Of a stretch of 35,340 nucleotides of DNA, positions 5,447-10,952 are shown in pieces. The notes beneath the pieces are model-generated. The model was not told the DNA's origin and searched no databases. It saw only the letters and a list, made by a program, of their open reading frames with translations. A program made the position numbers and the translations under genes. Within the stretch, counting starts at the first letter, position 1. Every line of letters begins with the position of its first letter. This DNA comes from Acidobacteriota bacterium (GTDB taxonomy: Bacteria; Acidobacteriota; Terriglobia; Acidiferrales; UBA7541): positions 1 to 35,340 of the forward strand of contig QHYZ01000113.1 of assembly GCA_003225295.1 (NCBI GenBank). Direction: 5' to 3'.

Positions 5447-6967
5447 ATGGCTACCGTGACTGCCATGCCCTCCGGTTCCCACCAGGAGCACCACGGCCTT
5501 TCCTTCTGGATGGATCGCGTCATCAAGGAGCTGGAAAGCGTCCGCTCGTCCCCCGACGCAGACGCCGTCCATGATCTTCGGGTGGCCATTCGCCGCTGCC
5601 GGTCGGTCGCTGCGGTGATGGAAGAGGTGGACCCCGATCCCGCCTGGCCCGCCATGCGCAAGGTGGCCCGCAAACTCTTCCGCGGGCTAGGTGCACTTCG
5701 CGATGCTCAAGTGATGGACGCGTGGGTAAAGAAACTCGCTCCCGAAACCGACGCCGTGCGCACGTATCTGCAAACCGCGTTCGAATCGAACGAACCAAAG
5801 CTGCGAGAAAACGCGCTCCGCGTGGCCGACAGATTCGACCAAAAGGCGTGGAAGCGCCTCGACCGCACTCTCAGTCAGCGCTCCCGCCTCGTGCCGGTTG
5901 GGAGTCTCGCCGCCGAATGCCTTGCTCTGGAACGATTCGAAAGCACCAGGGAGCTTCACGCCAAGGCCCTGCGCACCGAAAGACCCAAACCCTGGCATGC
6001 CTTGCGCATTGGACTGAAGCGCTTTCGCTACACGGTCGAAAGCCTGCTCCCGGAGCACTATGCCGCCTGGAGTGACAATCTCAAGCGTCTCCAGGACACG
6101 CTCGGCGAGATGCACGACCTCGACGTCCTTGCAGAAGTTGTCAAGAAGTCAGACTTCCTCGAAACCGAAGACTGTCTCAAACTCTGGCAGGAAAACATCA
6201 AACGCGAGCGCAACGATCGCATCGAAACCTATCGCCGGCTCACCCTCGGCAAGACCAGCCTCTGGAACATCAGGCGTTCCGGGCTACCCACGAATGGCCG
6301 GATCGAAGCTGCCGCTCTGGCCCGCTTGCGCGCCACGGCCCGCGCCGTTGATCCCCATGTGCGCCGTACCTCGCAAACCTCGCGTATCGCCGTGGCCCTT
6401 TTCGACGCCTTGAAACGCGCGGGCTCTGCTCCCGCGTTCAACGACCCCGCTCTTCGCCGGGTTTTGCTGTTTGCGGCTCGCTTGCATGGAGTTGGCGACA
6501 CGGACGCCGGCAAGTCACCTCAAAAAACCGCGCGCAAGTTCCTTCTTGGTCTCACGATTCCTCCCGGATGGAGCAACGAAGATTGGGAGTTGCTCGCTCT
6601 TGCGGTCCGTTACCATCGCGGGGCCGAACCCAGAGCAAAGGACGGTCCCTTTTCCAAGCTTTCGGCAGAGCAGCAGAACAGTGTCCGCGCCCTGGCCGGC
6701 GTTTTGCGGCTGGCGCGTGCGCTTCGCAAGTGCGGTGTGGTGAGCGGAGCAGGAATCAAAGCCGAAAAATCCGCCGACGCGATCGTGCTTCGTGTTCCCG
6801 GCCTAGTGGATGATCTCGAAACCGTCGCGCGCCTTGCTGCAGGCAAGCATCTTCTGGAAGATCGCCTTGGCATGCCCTTGATCCTAAAGGCCACCGCGAA
6901 GCCGGAAAAGGTCCTTGCCCTATCGCCCCGGCAAGCTCCCGAGTTCTCGGTCATCGCTTCCGATTGA
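5447..6967 (+). CDS. CHAD-domain protein fused to a degenerate Ppx-type HD domain
   Basis: A 506-residue cytoplasmic protein. Residues about 15-265 form a CHAD domain, a helical duplication with the conserved basic signature twice: VHDLRVAIRRCRS (H42, R45, R49) and WHALRIGLKRFRY (H184, R187, K191). CHAD domains are known polyphosphate binders. Residues about 315-500 align by eye with the C-terminal HD-type domain of the Ppx/GppA protein encoded 2.3 kb away: LLFAARLHGVGDT matches LLEAGALLHDTGH, and LALAVRYHRGAEP matches AALVRYHNRKSEP. The catalytic His-Asp pair is replaced by H347-G348, so this half is probably a non-catalytic regulatory or binding domain. The gene is convergent with the sixA-ppx series. 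A polyphosphate sensor or adaptor role is inferred. Confidence 0.85.
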   Translation: MATVTAMPSGSHQEHHGLSFWMDRVIKELESVRSSPDADAVHDLRVAIRRCRSVAAVMEEVDPDPAWPAMRKVARKLFRGLGALRDAQVMDAWVKKLAPETDAVRTYLQTAFESNEPKLRENALRVADRFDQKAWKRLDRTLSQRSRLVPVGSLAAECLALERFESTRELHAKALRTERPKPWHALRIGLKRFRYTVESLLPEHYAAWSDNLKRLQDTLGEMHDLDVLAEVVKKSDFLETEDCLKLWQENIKRERNDRIETYRRLTLGKTSLWNIRRSGLPTNGRIEAAALARLRATARAVDPHVRRTSQTSRIAVALFDALKRAGSAPAFNDPALRRVLLFAARLHGVGDTDAGKSPQKTARKFLLGLTIPPGWSNEDWELLALAVRYHRGAEPRAKDGPFSKLSAEQQNSVRALAGVLRLARALRKCGVVSGAGIKAEKSADAIVLRVPGLVDDLETVARLAAGKHLLEDRLGMPLILKATAKPEKVLALSPRQAPEFSVIASD

Positions 6968-7229: not shown

Positions 7230-7730
7230 TTACTTCCCTGCTCGCCGCAGCAACTTAGGTGTGGCAAGCCACACGAGTTCGCCAATCGGCGGAGAAATAC
7301 GCCTGAGCTCCACGAAAGCCACCCCCGCTTTTTTCATCGCCGTCAGAGGCTTTCTAGAGCCGAGCGCCGTAGCGATGACCTCATCGAGTTGCGGAGCATG
7401 GCCAAAGAGAAAGACCATGGACGCTTGCTTGTCCTTCGCCAGTTCGCGAAATAGAAGGGACGGCTCTGCTCCCGGCAACAGCAAATCCGTCCGCCGAATC
7501 TTCTGTTTGGCGTACGCCAGCGCACTGGCAAAAATTTGCGCGGTCTGCGTAGCGCGCACGTACGGACTTGAAAGCAACAGATCACCCGTCACACCGAGCG
7601 CTGCCACTCCTTTGGCCACCTGTTTGGTCTTCTCGATGCCCGCCTCGGTCAGATACCGTTCCGGGTCGGGAGGGCATTTGGGGTCCTCACGGTCAATGGC
7701 AATCCCATGGCGAACAATGTAAAGCTGCAT
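7230..7730 (-). CDS. sixA: SixA-type phosphohistidine phosphatase (histidine phosphatase superfamily)
   Basis: A small (166-residue) histidine phosphatase. The ATG at 7730 is chosen because a GGAG lies 8 nt upstream and the protein then starts directly with MQLYIVRHG, where H8 is the phospho-acceptor. The other family residues are visible: SPYVRATQTAQ (second Arg) and FGHAPQLDEV (catalytic His). SixA enzymes remove phosphate from phosphohistidine on signalling or PTS proteins; in E. coli the reported targets are ArcB and NPr. It is the last gene of a minus-strand series and starts 59 bp after the Ppx stop, so it is probably co-transcribed. The substrate is not predictable here. Confidence 0.87.
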   Translation of the reverse strand: MQLYIVRHGIAIDREDPKCPPDPERYLTEAGIEKTKQVAKGVAALGVTGDLLLSSPYVRATQTAQIFASALAYAKQKIRRTDLLLPGAEPSLLFRELAKDKQASMVFLFGHAPQLDEVIATALGSRKPLTAMKKAGVAFVELRRISPPIGELVWLATPKLLRRAGK

Positions 7731-7789
7731 CCCTTTTCTCCTTCGAATCAACGAGTCCTCGACAAACGGCACTTCTGCGGCCCGGCAAT

Positions 7790-9334
7790 TCACTCTGCCG
7801 ACGACTGGCGGAAATAGAGCCTCACGTGGAATTCCTTCTCAAACAGCTCCGCGCTGCGATGAGCGTCTCGCAAGTCTTCCGTGGCATCGCCGCTTGCGTG
7901 CACCTGCAATCCCACCGCGCCGCGCTGAAAGGAAGCGCGGATCTTCAACACGCGCTGCCGGTGGGAATGATCCAGAGCCTCGGCGATCCGCAGTATTGCC
8001 GCAAGTCTCCGAGTGACGCGTTGGTCCGTGTTGTTCAGCGAGGAATAAGCGGTGTGATGCCCAGCAGGCTCCGACTTTCGATTGTGATAGCGTACCAGTG
8101 CCGCCGCCACGGCTCGGTCGCGGCCTTCTAGCCCCGCGATATCGCCATTCAGGGCCAGGTACTCCCCATGCTTGTGATGCCCGCGGTGGCTGATCATGTG
8201 CCCGGTATCGTGCAGCAGTGCCCCGGCCTCCAGCAGCACACGCGCATGCGCCGGCAAATGATGCACCGCCTGCAACTGATCAAATAGCTGGATACTCAAT
8301 TCCCGGACGTGTTCCGCATGCTGTTGCTGGTATCCAATCCGCCGCGCAAAACTGCGCGTGCCCACGAGCAACTGGCGCGCCGCGGCGTTGTACCGGTGGG
8401 GCTCCTTGCGCGAGAAGGCTTCCCGGGCAATCTCCTGTAACAGCCCCTCTCGCACGCCGACGCCGGGGAGCGCAAATGTGCGCAAGTTCAGGTAACGCCC
8501 CAAGGTAAGAAACGTGATGGCCGCCACGCCCATCACGTCGGCGCGGTCACGCCGCACCGCATAGACTTTCATGCGTTCCCGCACGTCTCGCCTGAGAATG
8601 TCCGGCAAACGCACCCGCAAGAGCGACAATTCCATCGTTGGCAGGCCGTGTTGACGCGTCCCTGGAGCGATATTCGCCAGCGTTTCCGCGTTCCCACCCA
8701 GCGCCACCGCGATGCTTTCGCCCAAATTCGGGCGCGGCACTAGTTTCGACTCCAGCAGCGCGCGTACGTACCGCCGCACCTGCTCCGCTTCCGCCAGACG
8801 AATCACTCCGGGGAGTTCCAGAGTGGTCATCAGCCGCACCGTGCCCACCGGCAATTGCGCGCCTTGCTCCACGGTGCGATCGCGCAGGATGCTGATCTCC
8901 AGGCTTCCACCACCTAGATCCACGATGCAGCGGGGTGGCGCCTCCGGTCCCAGCGCGGCCAATACTGCTTCCCGGCCGAGACGCGACTCCTCAGCCGCAT
9001 TGATCACTTCCAGCGTGATTCCCGATTTCTGTTTGATGCGGCGCACAAACACCTTGCGGTTTCGCGCTTCACGCGTGGCGCTCGTCGCTACCGCGCGATA
9101 TCGCGTCACTCCGAATTCATCCATCAGTTCTCGAAAATGCCGGAAGGCCTTCGTGGCTTTCTTGAATATCTCTTCGCTAAAGCGGGGACGCACGAAAACG
9201 CTTTCTCCAAGACGTAGCGGGTAGCGTTCTACGTGGACGGGTTCGATATCCAGCGCGGAATAGGCGCGCGCCACGGACAGGCGCACGGCGTTCGAACCGG
9301 CATCGATGGCGGCGATATGAACCGGCTCGGACAT
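7790..9334 (-). CDS. ppx: Ppx/GppA exopolyphosphatase / pppGpp phosphatase with C-terminal HD domain
   Basis: A 514-residue Ppx/GppA family phosphatase, which hydrolyses terminal phosphate from polyphosphate and/or pppGpp. The N-terminal actin-like ATPase fold is shown by DAGSNAVRLS (residues 11-20), AAEESRLGREAV (catalytic Glu near 115-116) and DLGGGSLEIS (about 139-148). Residues about 315-500 form the HD-like domain, with HxxH near 339-342 and the H375-D376 pair in LLHDTGHMISHRGHHKHGE. The length matches long Ppx enzymes. Its start is 8 bp after the stop of the upstream kinase-like gene, indicating an operon. The same HD domain, minus its dyad, occurs in the nearby CHAD protein. Polyphosphate and pppGpp activity cannot be separated from sequence. 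Confidence 0.9.
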   Translation of the reverse strand: MSEPVHIAAIDAGSNAVRLSVARAYSALDIEPVHVERYPLRLGESVFVRPRFSEEIFKKATKAFRHFRELMDEFGVTRYRAVATSATREARNRKVFVRRIKQKSGITLEVINAAEESRLGREAVLAALGPEAPPRCIVDLGGGSLEISILRDRTVEQGAQLPVGTVRLMTTLELPGVIRLAEAEQVRRYVRALLESKLVPRPNLGESIAVALGGNAETLANIAPGTRQHGLPTMELSLLRVRLPDILRRDVRERMKVYAVRRDRADVMGVAAITFLTLGRYLNLRTFALPGVGVREGLLQEIAREAFSRKEPHRYNAAARQLLVGTRSFARRIGYQQQHAEHVRELSIQLFDQLQAVHHLPAHARVLLEAGALLHDTGHMISHRGHHKHGEYLALNGDIAGLEGRDRAVAAALVRYHNRKSEPAGHHTAYSSLNNTDQRVTRRLAAILRIAEALDHSHRQRVLKIRASFQRGAVGLQVHASGDATEDLRDAHRSAELFEKEFHVRLYFRQSSAE

Positions 9335-9342
9335 TCCAGGAG

Positions 9343-10188
9343 CTACCGCCAGAGGTGGGCTAGCGCGGCGGAAGGAGTGTACTTCGTCGCGCGAATTCCC
9401 AATTGCTCGCCGATACGCTGGCGCAGCTGCTTGTTCACGGCGGGAACGCTGGCCTCACCGTCCAGTTCGAGGAAACTATGTTTCTTGGCCATGACTTCGA
9501 ACTCGCGCTTGATCATCGTCTGATAGCGGATGAAAGACCAGTAGAGATCGTGGGAAAGCGACATGTCCCGTCCCGCTTCCCAATAACTGATGGCCTGTGC
9601 TTTCTTGAATTCCCGCCCGAAGGCCGTCTCTGGCCGCACGTTCAGCCAGAAAGTCAGGTGCGGCCGCAAGGCCATGGCGTAGAGCCCGCCCATGTAATCA
9701 CGATTGATGCCCCGCACCACGCCCCGCGCGATGAGCGTGAAGATGAAACGATCCGCCAGCACAATGGTGCCGGATCGCAGCGCCGGCAGAATACGGTGCT
9801 CCACCTGATCGAAGAAATCCGTTGCGTACATCAGCGCCAGCGTCAGCCGCGTCGCGGCGTTCTTGGCAAGAAGTTCATCGATGTCGCGTCCCACCAGATT
9901 CGAACGGCGCAGCCCGCTCGTCTGCACCGCAAACCCCTCCGATTCCAGCCACTCCTGCAATAGGGCAATCTGCGTTGACCGTCCCGACCCGTCCATGCCT
10001 TCAATTACGACCAGGCTGCCGGTTATTTCGCTGGGATCGAATCCGACCAGCGGCTCGCCAAAAAAATATTGGGACGACGCTTCGTCGGCGGCCGCAACCG
10101 CCTTGGCCCCCGCCACTGGAGGCGTTGCCACGGGCGTCTCCGCCGCTGGAACCGCCCCTGACGTTTTCTCTTTTTCCTGGTCCGGCAT
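9343..10188 (-). CDS. Thymidylate-kinase-like P-loop protein with Lys-to-Arg in Walker A
   Basis: A 281-residue protein of the thymidylate kinase-like fold with a roughly 45-residue Ala/Pro-rich N-terminal extension. I choose ATG 10188 over the in-frame GTG 10194 because the GGAG lies 5 nt before the ATG and overlaps the GTG. The P-loop reads VIEGMDGSGRSTQ: Arg (codon CGG, residue 70) replaces the near-invariant Lys. The DRF motif (D146-F148) is retained in LADRFIFT, but the TMK substrate loop (REPGGT-like) is absent. It starts 2-3 bp after the stop of its paralogue, which has an intact Walker A. This may be an inactive or altered partner subunit. True dTMP kinase activity is unlikely. Confidence 0.8.
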   Translation of the reverse strand: MPDQEKEKTSGAVPAAETPVATPPVAGAKAVAAADEASSQYFFGEPLVGFDPSEITGSLVVIEGMDGSGRSTQIALLQEWLESEGFAVQTSGLRRSNLVGRDIDELLAKNAATRLTLALMYATDFFDQVEHRILPALRSGTIVLADRFIFTLIARGVVRGINRDYMGGLYAMALRPHLTFWLNVRPETAFGREFKKAQAISYWEAGRDMSLSHDLYWSFIRYQTMIKREFEVMAKKHSFLELDGEASVPAVNKQLRQRIGEQLGIRATKYTPSAALAHLWR

Positions 10189-10190
10189 GG

Positions 10191-10952
10191 TCACTCCGAG
10201 TCCTGAAGGTGTGGAGCGAAGCGCTTGAGATCGATTTTTGACGCCACGATGTCGCGCATCTGTTTTTGCAGCTTATTCACGGGAAGCGTGCCGTCCAGTA
10301 CGACGAAATTGTCGGTGTCCACCATCTTGTCGTACTCCTCCAGAATCCGCGCCTGAAACAATCGGAAACTCTCCGCGCGGTCGTAGGACATCCCCAAATC
10401 CATGCCCGCTTCGTAGTATTTCAATTTCGGACGCCCGCTCAGGATGCGATGCACGGCCACCTCCAGCGGCGCGCGGAAATAAAACGTAATGTCCGGAATC
10501 GGCGCAAAGCGGTACAAATTTCGCAGCCATCTCGCCGGGCAGCCCCGCGCCGCATCCCTCGCAAACGCCGTGTAAATGTAGCGATCAGCAAGGACTAGAT
10601 AGTCGCCCTGAAGCAACGGCATGATCTGTCGCTCACAACGGTCCGCAAAATCCGCCGCGTGCAGCAGCGAAAATGTCGTCGGCGTCAGCAAGCGCCGCTG
10701 TTTTCCTCGCCGCGTAGCGGATTTCACCAGCGGCGATGAATTCCATTCCGTAAAATGTAAACGGAATCCGCCAATTTCCAGCCAGCGCTTGAGCAAATAC
10801 AGTTGCGTGCTCTTGCCCGACCCGTCCGTGCCTTCAACCACAATCAATGCGCCCGGATACGCGCGGCTGGGAATCGGCCGGCCCGGTTGCGGAAGGGTGG
10901 ATTTCGCCGGCTCGGTTCGCGGCGCTTTCTGCGTTACATCCAGATTTTCCAT
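10191..10952 (-). CDS. Thymidylate-kinase-like P-loop kinase (intact Walker A)
   Basis: A 253-residue P-loop kinase of the thymidylate kinase-like superfamily. Walker A is VVEGTDGSGKSTQ (K47), and the DRY motif is at 123-125 in LADRYIYTAFARD. The position where real dTMP kinases have TREPGGT reads TEWNSSPLVK, so the substrate is probably not dTMP. The first 33 residues are Pro/Lys-rich and probably disordered. It is the first gene of a tight minus-strand series (this gene, its Walker-A-variant paralogue, ppx, sixA) and begins 163 bp after mlaD. The setting suggests a phosphate or polyphosphate-linked phosphotransfer role, but this is inference. PPK2 motifs are not seen. Confidence 0.82.
   Translation of the reverse strand: MENLDVTQKAPRTEPAKSTLPQPGRPIPSRAYPGALIVVEGTDGSGKSTQLYLLKRWLEIGGFRLHFTEWNSSPLVKSATRRGKQRRLLTPTTFSLLHAADFADRCERQIMPLLQGDYLVLADRYIYTAFARDAARGCPARWLRNLYRFAPIPDITFYFRAPLEVAVHRILSGRPKLKYYEAGMDLGMSYDRAESFRLFQARILEEYDKMVDTDNFVVLDGTLPVNKLQKQMRDIVASKIDLKRFAPHLQDSE

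Follow-up and report, generated by a model that had tools for sequence, protein, structure and literature searches.

A conserved fusion of a CHAD domain with the C-terminal half of Ppx in Acidobacteriota, and the apparently lineage-specific loss of its HD site

Domain III of Ppx is usually regarded as an accessory part, and the domain of E. coli PPX1 used to probe for polyphosphate (polyP) is the C-terminal part of that protein. According to PMC6537752, CHAD domains bind polyP, about half of the annotated CHAD proteins carry an N-terminal TTM/CYTH domain, and the polyP-binding domain of E. coli PPX1 serves as a probe. For Ppx, excerpts of PMC11234463 assign the C-terminal domain a role in domain contacts and in the dimer form and describe the N-terminal part alone as much less active, and the part behind domain III is named domain IV in E. 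coli Ppx (excerpts of PMC12248826). The activation of an archaeal Ppx by metals has been tentatively ascribed to an HD motif, on the sole basis of a BLASTp match (excerpts of PMC6821655). The excerpts of the Ppx literature cited here contain no assay of the HD domain for enzymatic activity.

The window, i.e. the whole analysed stretch of 35,340 nucleotides from an Acidobacteriota bacterium, encodes a protein in which these known parts are joined in a new combination (Table 1), and this domain fusion is conserved. Compared with Ppx, it has CHAD in place of the catalytic N-terminal half, and its HD site is without three of the ligands, namely the first His, the Asp of the dyad and the last Asp. 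Compared with the CHAD-TTM proteins of the ygiF type, the partner of CHAD is a C-terminal Ppx tail and no N-terminal TTM/CYTH domain is present. No description of a CHAD–Ppx-tail fusion was found in the open-licence PMC literature, subscription journals and databases lying outside the scope of this search.

Table 1 Features of the fusion gene and its neighbours in the window
Feature	Position	Strand	Basis or remark
CHAD–Ppx-tail fusion protein, 506 aa	5447..6967	+	open ORF
CHAD domain, residues 24-231	5516..6139	+	Pfam PF05235
Ppx-type C-terminal half, residues ~284-490: HD-like helical domain III and trailing beta-beta-alpha-beta part	6296..6916	+	
H347-G348, at the HD dyad position	6485..6490	+	
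SixA-type phosphohistidine phosphatase gene	7230..7793	-	TIGR00249, 79.6 bits (cut-off 74.5)
Ppx, 514 aa, HD ligands intact	7790..9334	-	PF02541, PF21447 and HD matches (Pfam)
Two tandem thymidylate-kinase-like genes	9343..10952	-	each barely over the dTMP kinase cut-off

Domain layout and homology of the tail

The CHAD domain was recognised with E 1.4e-33 and 117.2 bits (curated cut-off 25.6), and residues 310-428 matched Ppx-GppA_III (PF21447) with E 3.2e-8 and 34.0 bits (curated cut-off 27.3). No other Pfam family was found in the 506 aa up to E 0.1; neither the HD model PF01966 nor a TTM/CYTH domain matched up to this value, CHAD starting at residue 24, and the catalytic N-terminal Ppx domain PF02541 was not found by Pfam. 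The fusion is the single CHAD match in its own genome, where PF21447 has two matches, Ppx and the fusion. Among the 27 members from the genus, the near-invariant CHAD positions include R45, R49, R50, R52, H184, R187, K191, R194 and Y195. The fusion resembles the CHAD proteins or phosins (PF05235), which are associated with polyP granules, in its conserved basic and His residues and in the place of its gene beside ppx/sixA.

The likeness of the C-terminal residues to the C-terminal domain of Ppx, which the earlier note had seen by eye, was borne out by the Pfam match given above, by BLASTP against the window Ppx (56/187 columns identical, 30%, E 9e-10) and by the profile comparison on which that note had let the likeness stand or fall. 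In this comparison (hhalign) the 27 fusion tails of the genus matched Ppx tails with a probability of 99.6% and E 4.7e-23 over 198 columns, and two unrelated control pairings (the CHAD part against the Ppx tail, the fused tail against the Ppx N-terminal half) gave a probability of 0.06%. Since the profile alignment extends beyond the HD part up to the C-terminal end of Ppx, the whole C-terminal half, domain III together with what follows it, is present in the fusion, and the tail matches the Ppx/GppA half (PF21447 and domain IV) along its whole length in sequence, profile and fold.

For the fold, the tail was modelled (pTM 0.67, mean pLDDT 63.9) as helices followed by a strand, a strand, a helix and a strand. 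When this model was searched with Foldseek, the first 25 PDB rows were all Ppx/GppA (best E 1.5e-4, query TM 0.58), and D. radiodurans Ppx aligned with it at Z 14.2 over 152 residues. The HD proteins SAMHD1, HD-GYP, PDE4 and a SpoT orthologue reached Z 5-6, and unrelated ribosomal proteins were equally high. A structure prediction had been proposed as a check, and it put Ppx/GppA first among the fold matches; as the alignment given to the model contained Ppx tails and may have pulled it to the Ppx fold, this match is taken as support and not as independent proof. A full-length AlphaFold model from 6 sequences (mean pLDDT 55.3) was set aside.

Relatives were found within the genus and beyond. 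In the class sample, 86/349 genomes had a match at E 1e-20 or better, some by CHAD alone, and within the window's genus this was so for 30/36. In family f2, a fusion of that family was matched at E 1e-30 by 49/150 genomes, in some cases in part only, and 9/297 genomes of the phylum had matches across both halves. A fusion was counted only if its ORF had at least 400 aa; fragments or split copies (L035/L064, L036/L066, L037 and L055) were left out of the counts, and L035 and L037 were included in the structure-prediction alignments.

The HD site in fusions and in Ppx

The dyads are as previously described, H375-D376 in the window Ppx and H347-G348 in the fusion, and the loss in the fusion reaches further. 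By alignment to the relative L101, its ligand positions are R307, H347-G348, P358, Q359, H390 and R427; besides the dyad Asp, the first ligand His (now R307) and the last Asp (now R427) are lost, the HH of GHHK has become P358-Q359, and H347 and H390 remain. The four positions H, HD and D, which we take to be the core ligands of the HD superfamily, thus read R, HG and R, and the window Ppx retains all seven compared ligands (H339, H375-D376, H386, H387, H417 and D455). The dyad position is occupied by His-Glu in the four solved Ppx that were aligned, those of E. coli, K. pneumoniae, A. baumannii and D. radiodurans, and likewise in one further solved-Ppx fragment. Judging from these alignments, an absent HD dyad also occurs among Ppx enzymes, and it therefore does not in itself single out a sensor or a competitor.

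The fusions belong to the same fold family as the HD phosphohydrolases (PF01966). In the families f1, f2 and f29 there are relatives that have the core ligands and match the HD model, whose cut-off was exceeded by 5/5 core-intact fusions tested (L101, L091, L086, L105 and L104), whereas the fusions of the window's genus are without the core metal ligands. L075, which is without the dyad, gave no HD match at E 0.001. Altogether, the four core ligands are kept by 40/98 fusions and by 0/27 in the window's genus, where L044 keeps the dyad itself, though not all four ligands. As read from these ligand positions, the loss of the HD site is lineage-specific and not general to fusions.

The history of the tail was followed in quickly searched trees that either had no root or were rooted on an outgroup of doubtful value. 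In the tail tree, for which 29/98 fused tails and 40/129 Ppx tails were picked by hand (the 129 contain genome G508 twice), all fused tails lay on one side of a branch separating them from the Ppx tails with support 100. A recent duplication of the tail of Ppx at this locus is ruled out, the sampled fused tails forming one group apart from Ppx tails. Of the earlier description, the joining of CHAD to an HD domain of Ppx type that lacks the metal dyad is retained, but an origin as a dead copy of the adjacent Ppx is not supported, since the fused tails form a separate clade and 40/98 fusions are intact. For the same two reasons the fusion is most likely older than the decay. It apparently had a single origin, and no later exchange with Ppx was seen in the sampled tails. 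A tree of the CHAD part with 69 rows (intact 14, degenerate 45, absent 10) needed at least 7 state changes, intact meaning six ligands on this tree and four ligands in the counts of 98 fusions and 73 genomes.

These 73 genomes are those in which both proteins were read. The core ligands were kept in the fusion only in 35, in Ppx only in 18, in both in 3 and in neither in 17; with Glu accepted for Asp, the numbers in the same order were 41, 21, 4 and 7. By family they were 5, 18, 1 and 4 in f1, 30, 0, 0 and 13 in f2, and 0, 0, 2 and 0 in f29, so that 0/43 Ppx of f2 in the table keep the core ligands. For this table 81/98 fusions were assigned to a genome, and 8 assigned genomes had no Ppx read (G567, G395, G446, G517, G196, G609, G612 and G600). 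The 17 fusions that were not entered, their Ppx being unfetched or unmapped, were 15 members of the window's genus (none core-intact) and two G661 copies (one core-intact). In genus g172 the fusion was intact and Ppx had lost its ligands in 4/4, and in the related genus g169 the fusion had lost them in 5/5 and Ppx was intact in 3/5. In members of the window's genus without a fusion match, Ppx keeps the core ligands in three (L248, L249 and L250).

Such numbers could arise if an HD function were shared by the two proteins and lost reciprocally, one copy being sufficient, so that the dead site in the window's genus would be the permitted loss of a redundant copy; the many genomes with a single intact site and the opposite ways taken by g172 and g169 speak for this. 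However, 17/73 genomes keep neither site, and where f2 and f3 genomes have no fusion match, their Ppx had lost the core ligands in 18/18 read, which means that the function, if shared, would be dispensable. The independent-pairs test on the tree gave 6 supported differing pairs for the fusion, with Ppx differing in ~0.5 of them (median p 1), and 3 supported differing pairs for Ppx (median p 1), the fewest changes on the tree being 12 for the fusion and 5 for Ppx. As the pattern rests on few independent changes, it finds no support in the tree test, and reciprocal loss is considered a possible but doubtful explanation. The opposite loss of the HD site in fusion and Ppx is a pattern, no proven dependence. 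Among Ppx of f2 and f3 (L152-L166, L202-L247) none was read as core-intact, the commonest reading being H-YE-RH-L-N.

Gene neighbourhood

In the window, the sixA gene sits between the fusion gene and ppx and overlaps the ppx 3' end by 4 bases, the fusion gene is convergent with sixA–ppx, and an OMP gene lies upstream, divergent from it. From this layout, the fusion gene is probably transcribed alone. The distance of 2.3 kb to ppx reported before corresponds roughly to that from the fusion start to the nearer end of ppx; the two ORFs themselves are 0.8 kb apart. The pair of thymidylate-kinase-like genes accompanies ppx in most fetched f1 loci.

The nearness to ppx, for which a survey across fusions had been recommended, was found in f1 but not in f2 and f29. 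The same stretch contained ppx at 18/24 fetched f1 fusion loci, one of the six others being a contig of 3.9 kb, and ppx was found at 0/16 fusion loci of f2 and f29 with about 7-8 kb fetched on each side. A linkage of the fusion to ppx everywhere is thus ruled out, and an obligatory partnership, though possible, is not favoured within these flanks. In genera g170 and g171 (L107-L116), a CHAD-only protein of 296-346 aa is encoded beside sixA-ppx in the same place at 10/10 loci, the absence of the tail being found by Pfam for L107; the tail is therefore dispensable in those genera. In other families of the phylum, ppx lies within ~2 kb of CHAD genes without a detected Ppx-type tail at 7/16 loci.

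These loci bear on the role in which the fused tail would regulate Ppx or compete with it, by forming mixed assemblies or by occupying the polyP site of Ppx. The frequent proximity of the genes in f1 would suit this role, as would the part taken by the Ppx C-terminal domain in domain contacts and in the dimer form (excerpts of PMC11234463). But the genes are convergent and do not follow one another, ppx is absent from all the fetched f2 and f29 loci, and the CHAD-only proteins of g170 and g171 indicate that the neighbourhood is independent of the tail, so a regulator or competitor of Ppx seems improbable.

Some neighbours in f2 were recognised by eye, as recR, dnaX and a Nudix-like gene. Genes that fall into a single cluster (c18) adjoin the fusion in three f2 loci (L097, L098 and L099), and the copy in L097 is Nudix-like by eye. 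Two genes are split over frames, the fusion gene of L036 (3045-4581) and the ppx gene of L077 (10150-11601), which may be an assembly error or a true break. In the window, the ORF at 355-1674 matches UPF0236 weakly (PF06782, E 9.1e-7), and the search against plasmid records gave no match.

Constraint, charge and possible function

In the window's genus, the median dN/dS was 0.124 for the dead tail and 0.087 for CHAD (14/27 sequences, 91 pairs, 84 and 76 usable), and for Ppx (8 members, 28 pairs) the values were 0.084 (N-terminal half) and 0.065 (tail), all these ratios being rough since dS is near saturation (median ~1.5). A pseudogene or decaying tail is ruled out for the genus, given the dN/dS of ~0.12 and the full-length open frames in 27 members. 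The median net charge of the tail, as a raw value without correction for kinship or GC, was +17 in fusions of the genus (n=27), +14 in core-intact fusions (n=40) and +11 in other degenerate fusions (n=31), compared with +7 in core-intact Ppx (n=47) and +8 in the other Ppx (n=82). Since the other degenerate fusions are less charged than the intact ones, the high charge is not simply tied to a dead site; by these calculated charges it is a trait of the fusions, highest in the window's genus, and not of site loss generally.

The loss of the ligands, the selection on the tail and its more basic character than that of Ppx tails suggest that the tail in the window most likely serves binding or assembly. 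We give about an even chance to the reading that the fusion is a non-catalytic, basic scaffold for polyanions, derived from a CHAD-HD protein and held under purifying selection, with polyP as the presumed ligand. According to this reading, CHAD would have been fused, probably once and early in the sampled f1, f2 and f29 lineages, to the C-terminal half of a Ppx, which from the tail tree and the ligand table probably still had a metal-binding HD site at that time; the trees being unrooted, the direction of change is deduced from finding the site intact in separate lineages. The HD site would then have decayed in the window's genus, while the basic domain stayed under purifying selection. The tail would most likely be a second module for polyanion binding or assembly next to CHAD, without catalysis, and the protein would coat or cross-link polyP, or hold polyP enzymes on it. 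Any HD activity, irrespective of the substrate, would then fall in this genus to Ppx with its complete HD site.

A wider reading, that an HD phosphohydrolase function of Acidobacteriota is housed either in Ppx or in the CHAD fusion and has been shifted between them by reciprocal decay, the emptied domain of the genus being re-used as a basic polyP-binding scaffold, is speculative and rather unlikely. If it were true, the HD domain of Ppx would itself be an enzyme wherever its ligands are intact. Domain III is found with a complete metal site in many Ppx and also in a CHAD protein distinct from them, its fate being opposite in different lineages. This provides natural pairs of dead and intact domains, joined to CHAD or not, for testing whether the role of the HD domain in Ppx is enzymatic, binding or structural, which the solved Ppx, having His-Glu at the site, are unable to reveal.

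As to the ligand, the fusion's own genome has no match to PPK1 and one match to PPK2. PPK1 was present in 3/17 f1 genomes tested (own included), 8/8 in f2 and 2/2 in f29, and PPK2 in 13/17 of the f1 genomes tested; in three g172 genomes (91-97% complete) with an intact fusion, neither PPK1 nor PPK2 was matched. Because PPK1 is rare in f1 and these three genomes are without both enzymes, polyP as ligand is not assured. The same g172 genomes, together with the 14/17 tested f1 genomes (own included) that gave no PPK1 match, would agree with a ligand or substrate other than polyP, for example another polyphosphorylated or anionic compound. Yet the CHAD residues are conserved in the genus, and the own genome carries ppx, sixA and a gene for PPK2; such a ligand is thus considered quite unlikely, and polyP is kept as the presumed ligand of the scaffold. 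In 6/8 f2 genomes, the PPK1 match lies within ~2.6 kb of the ppx match.
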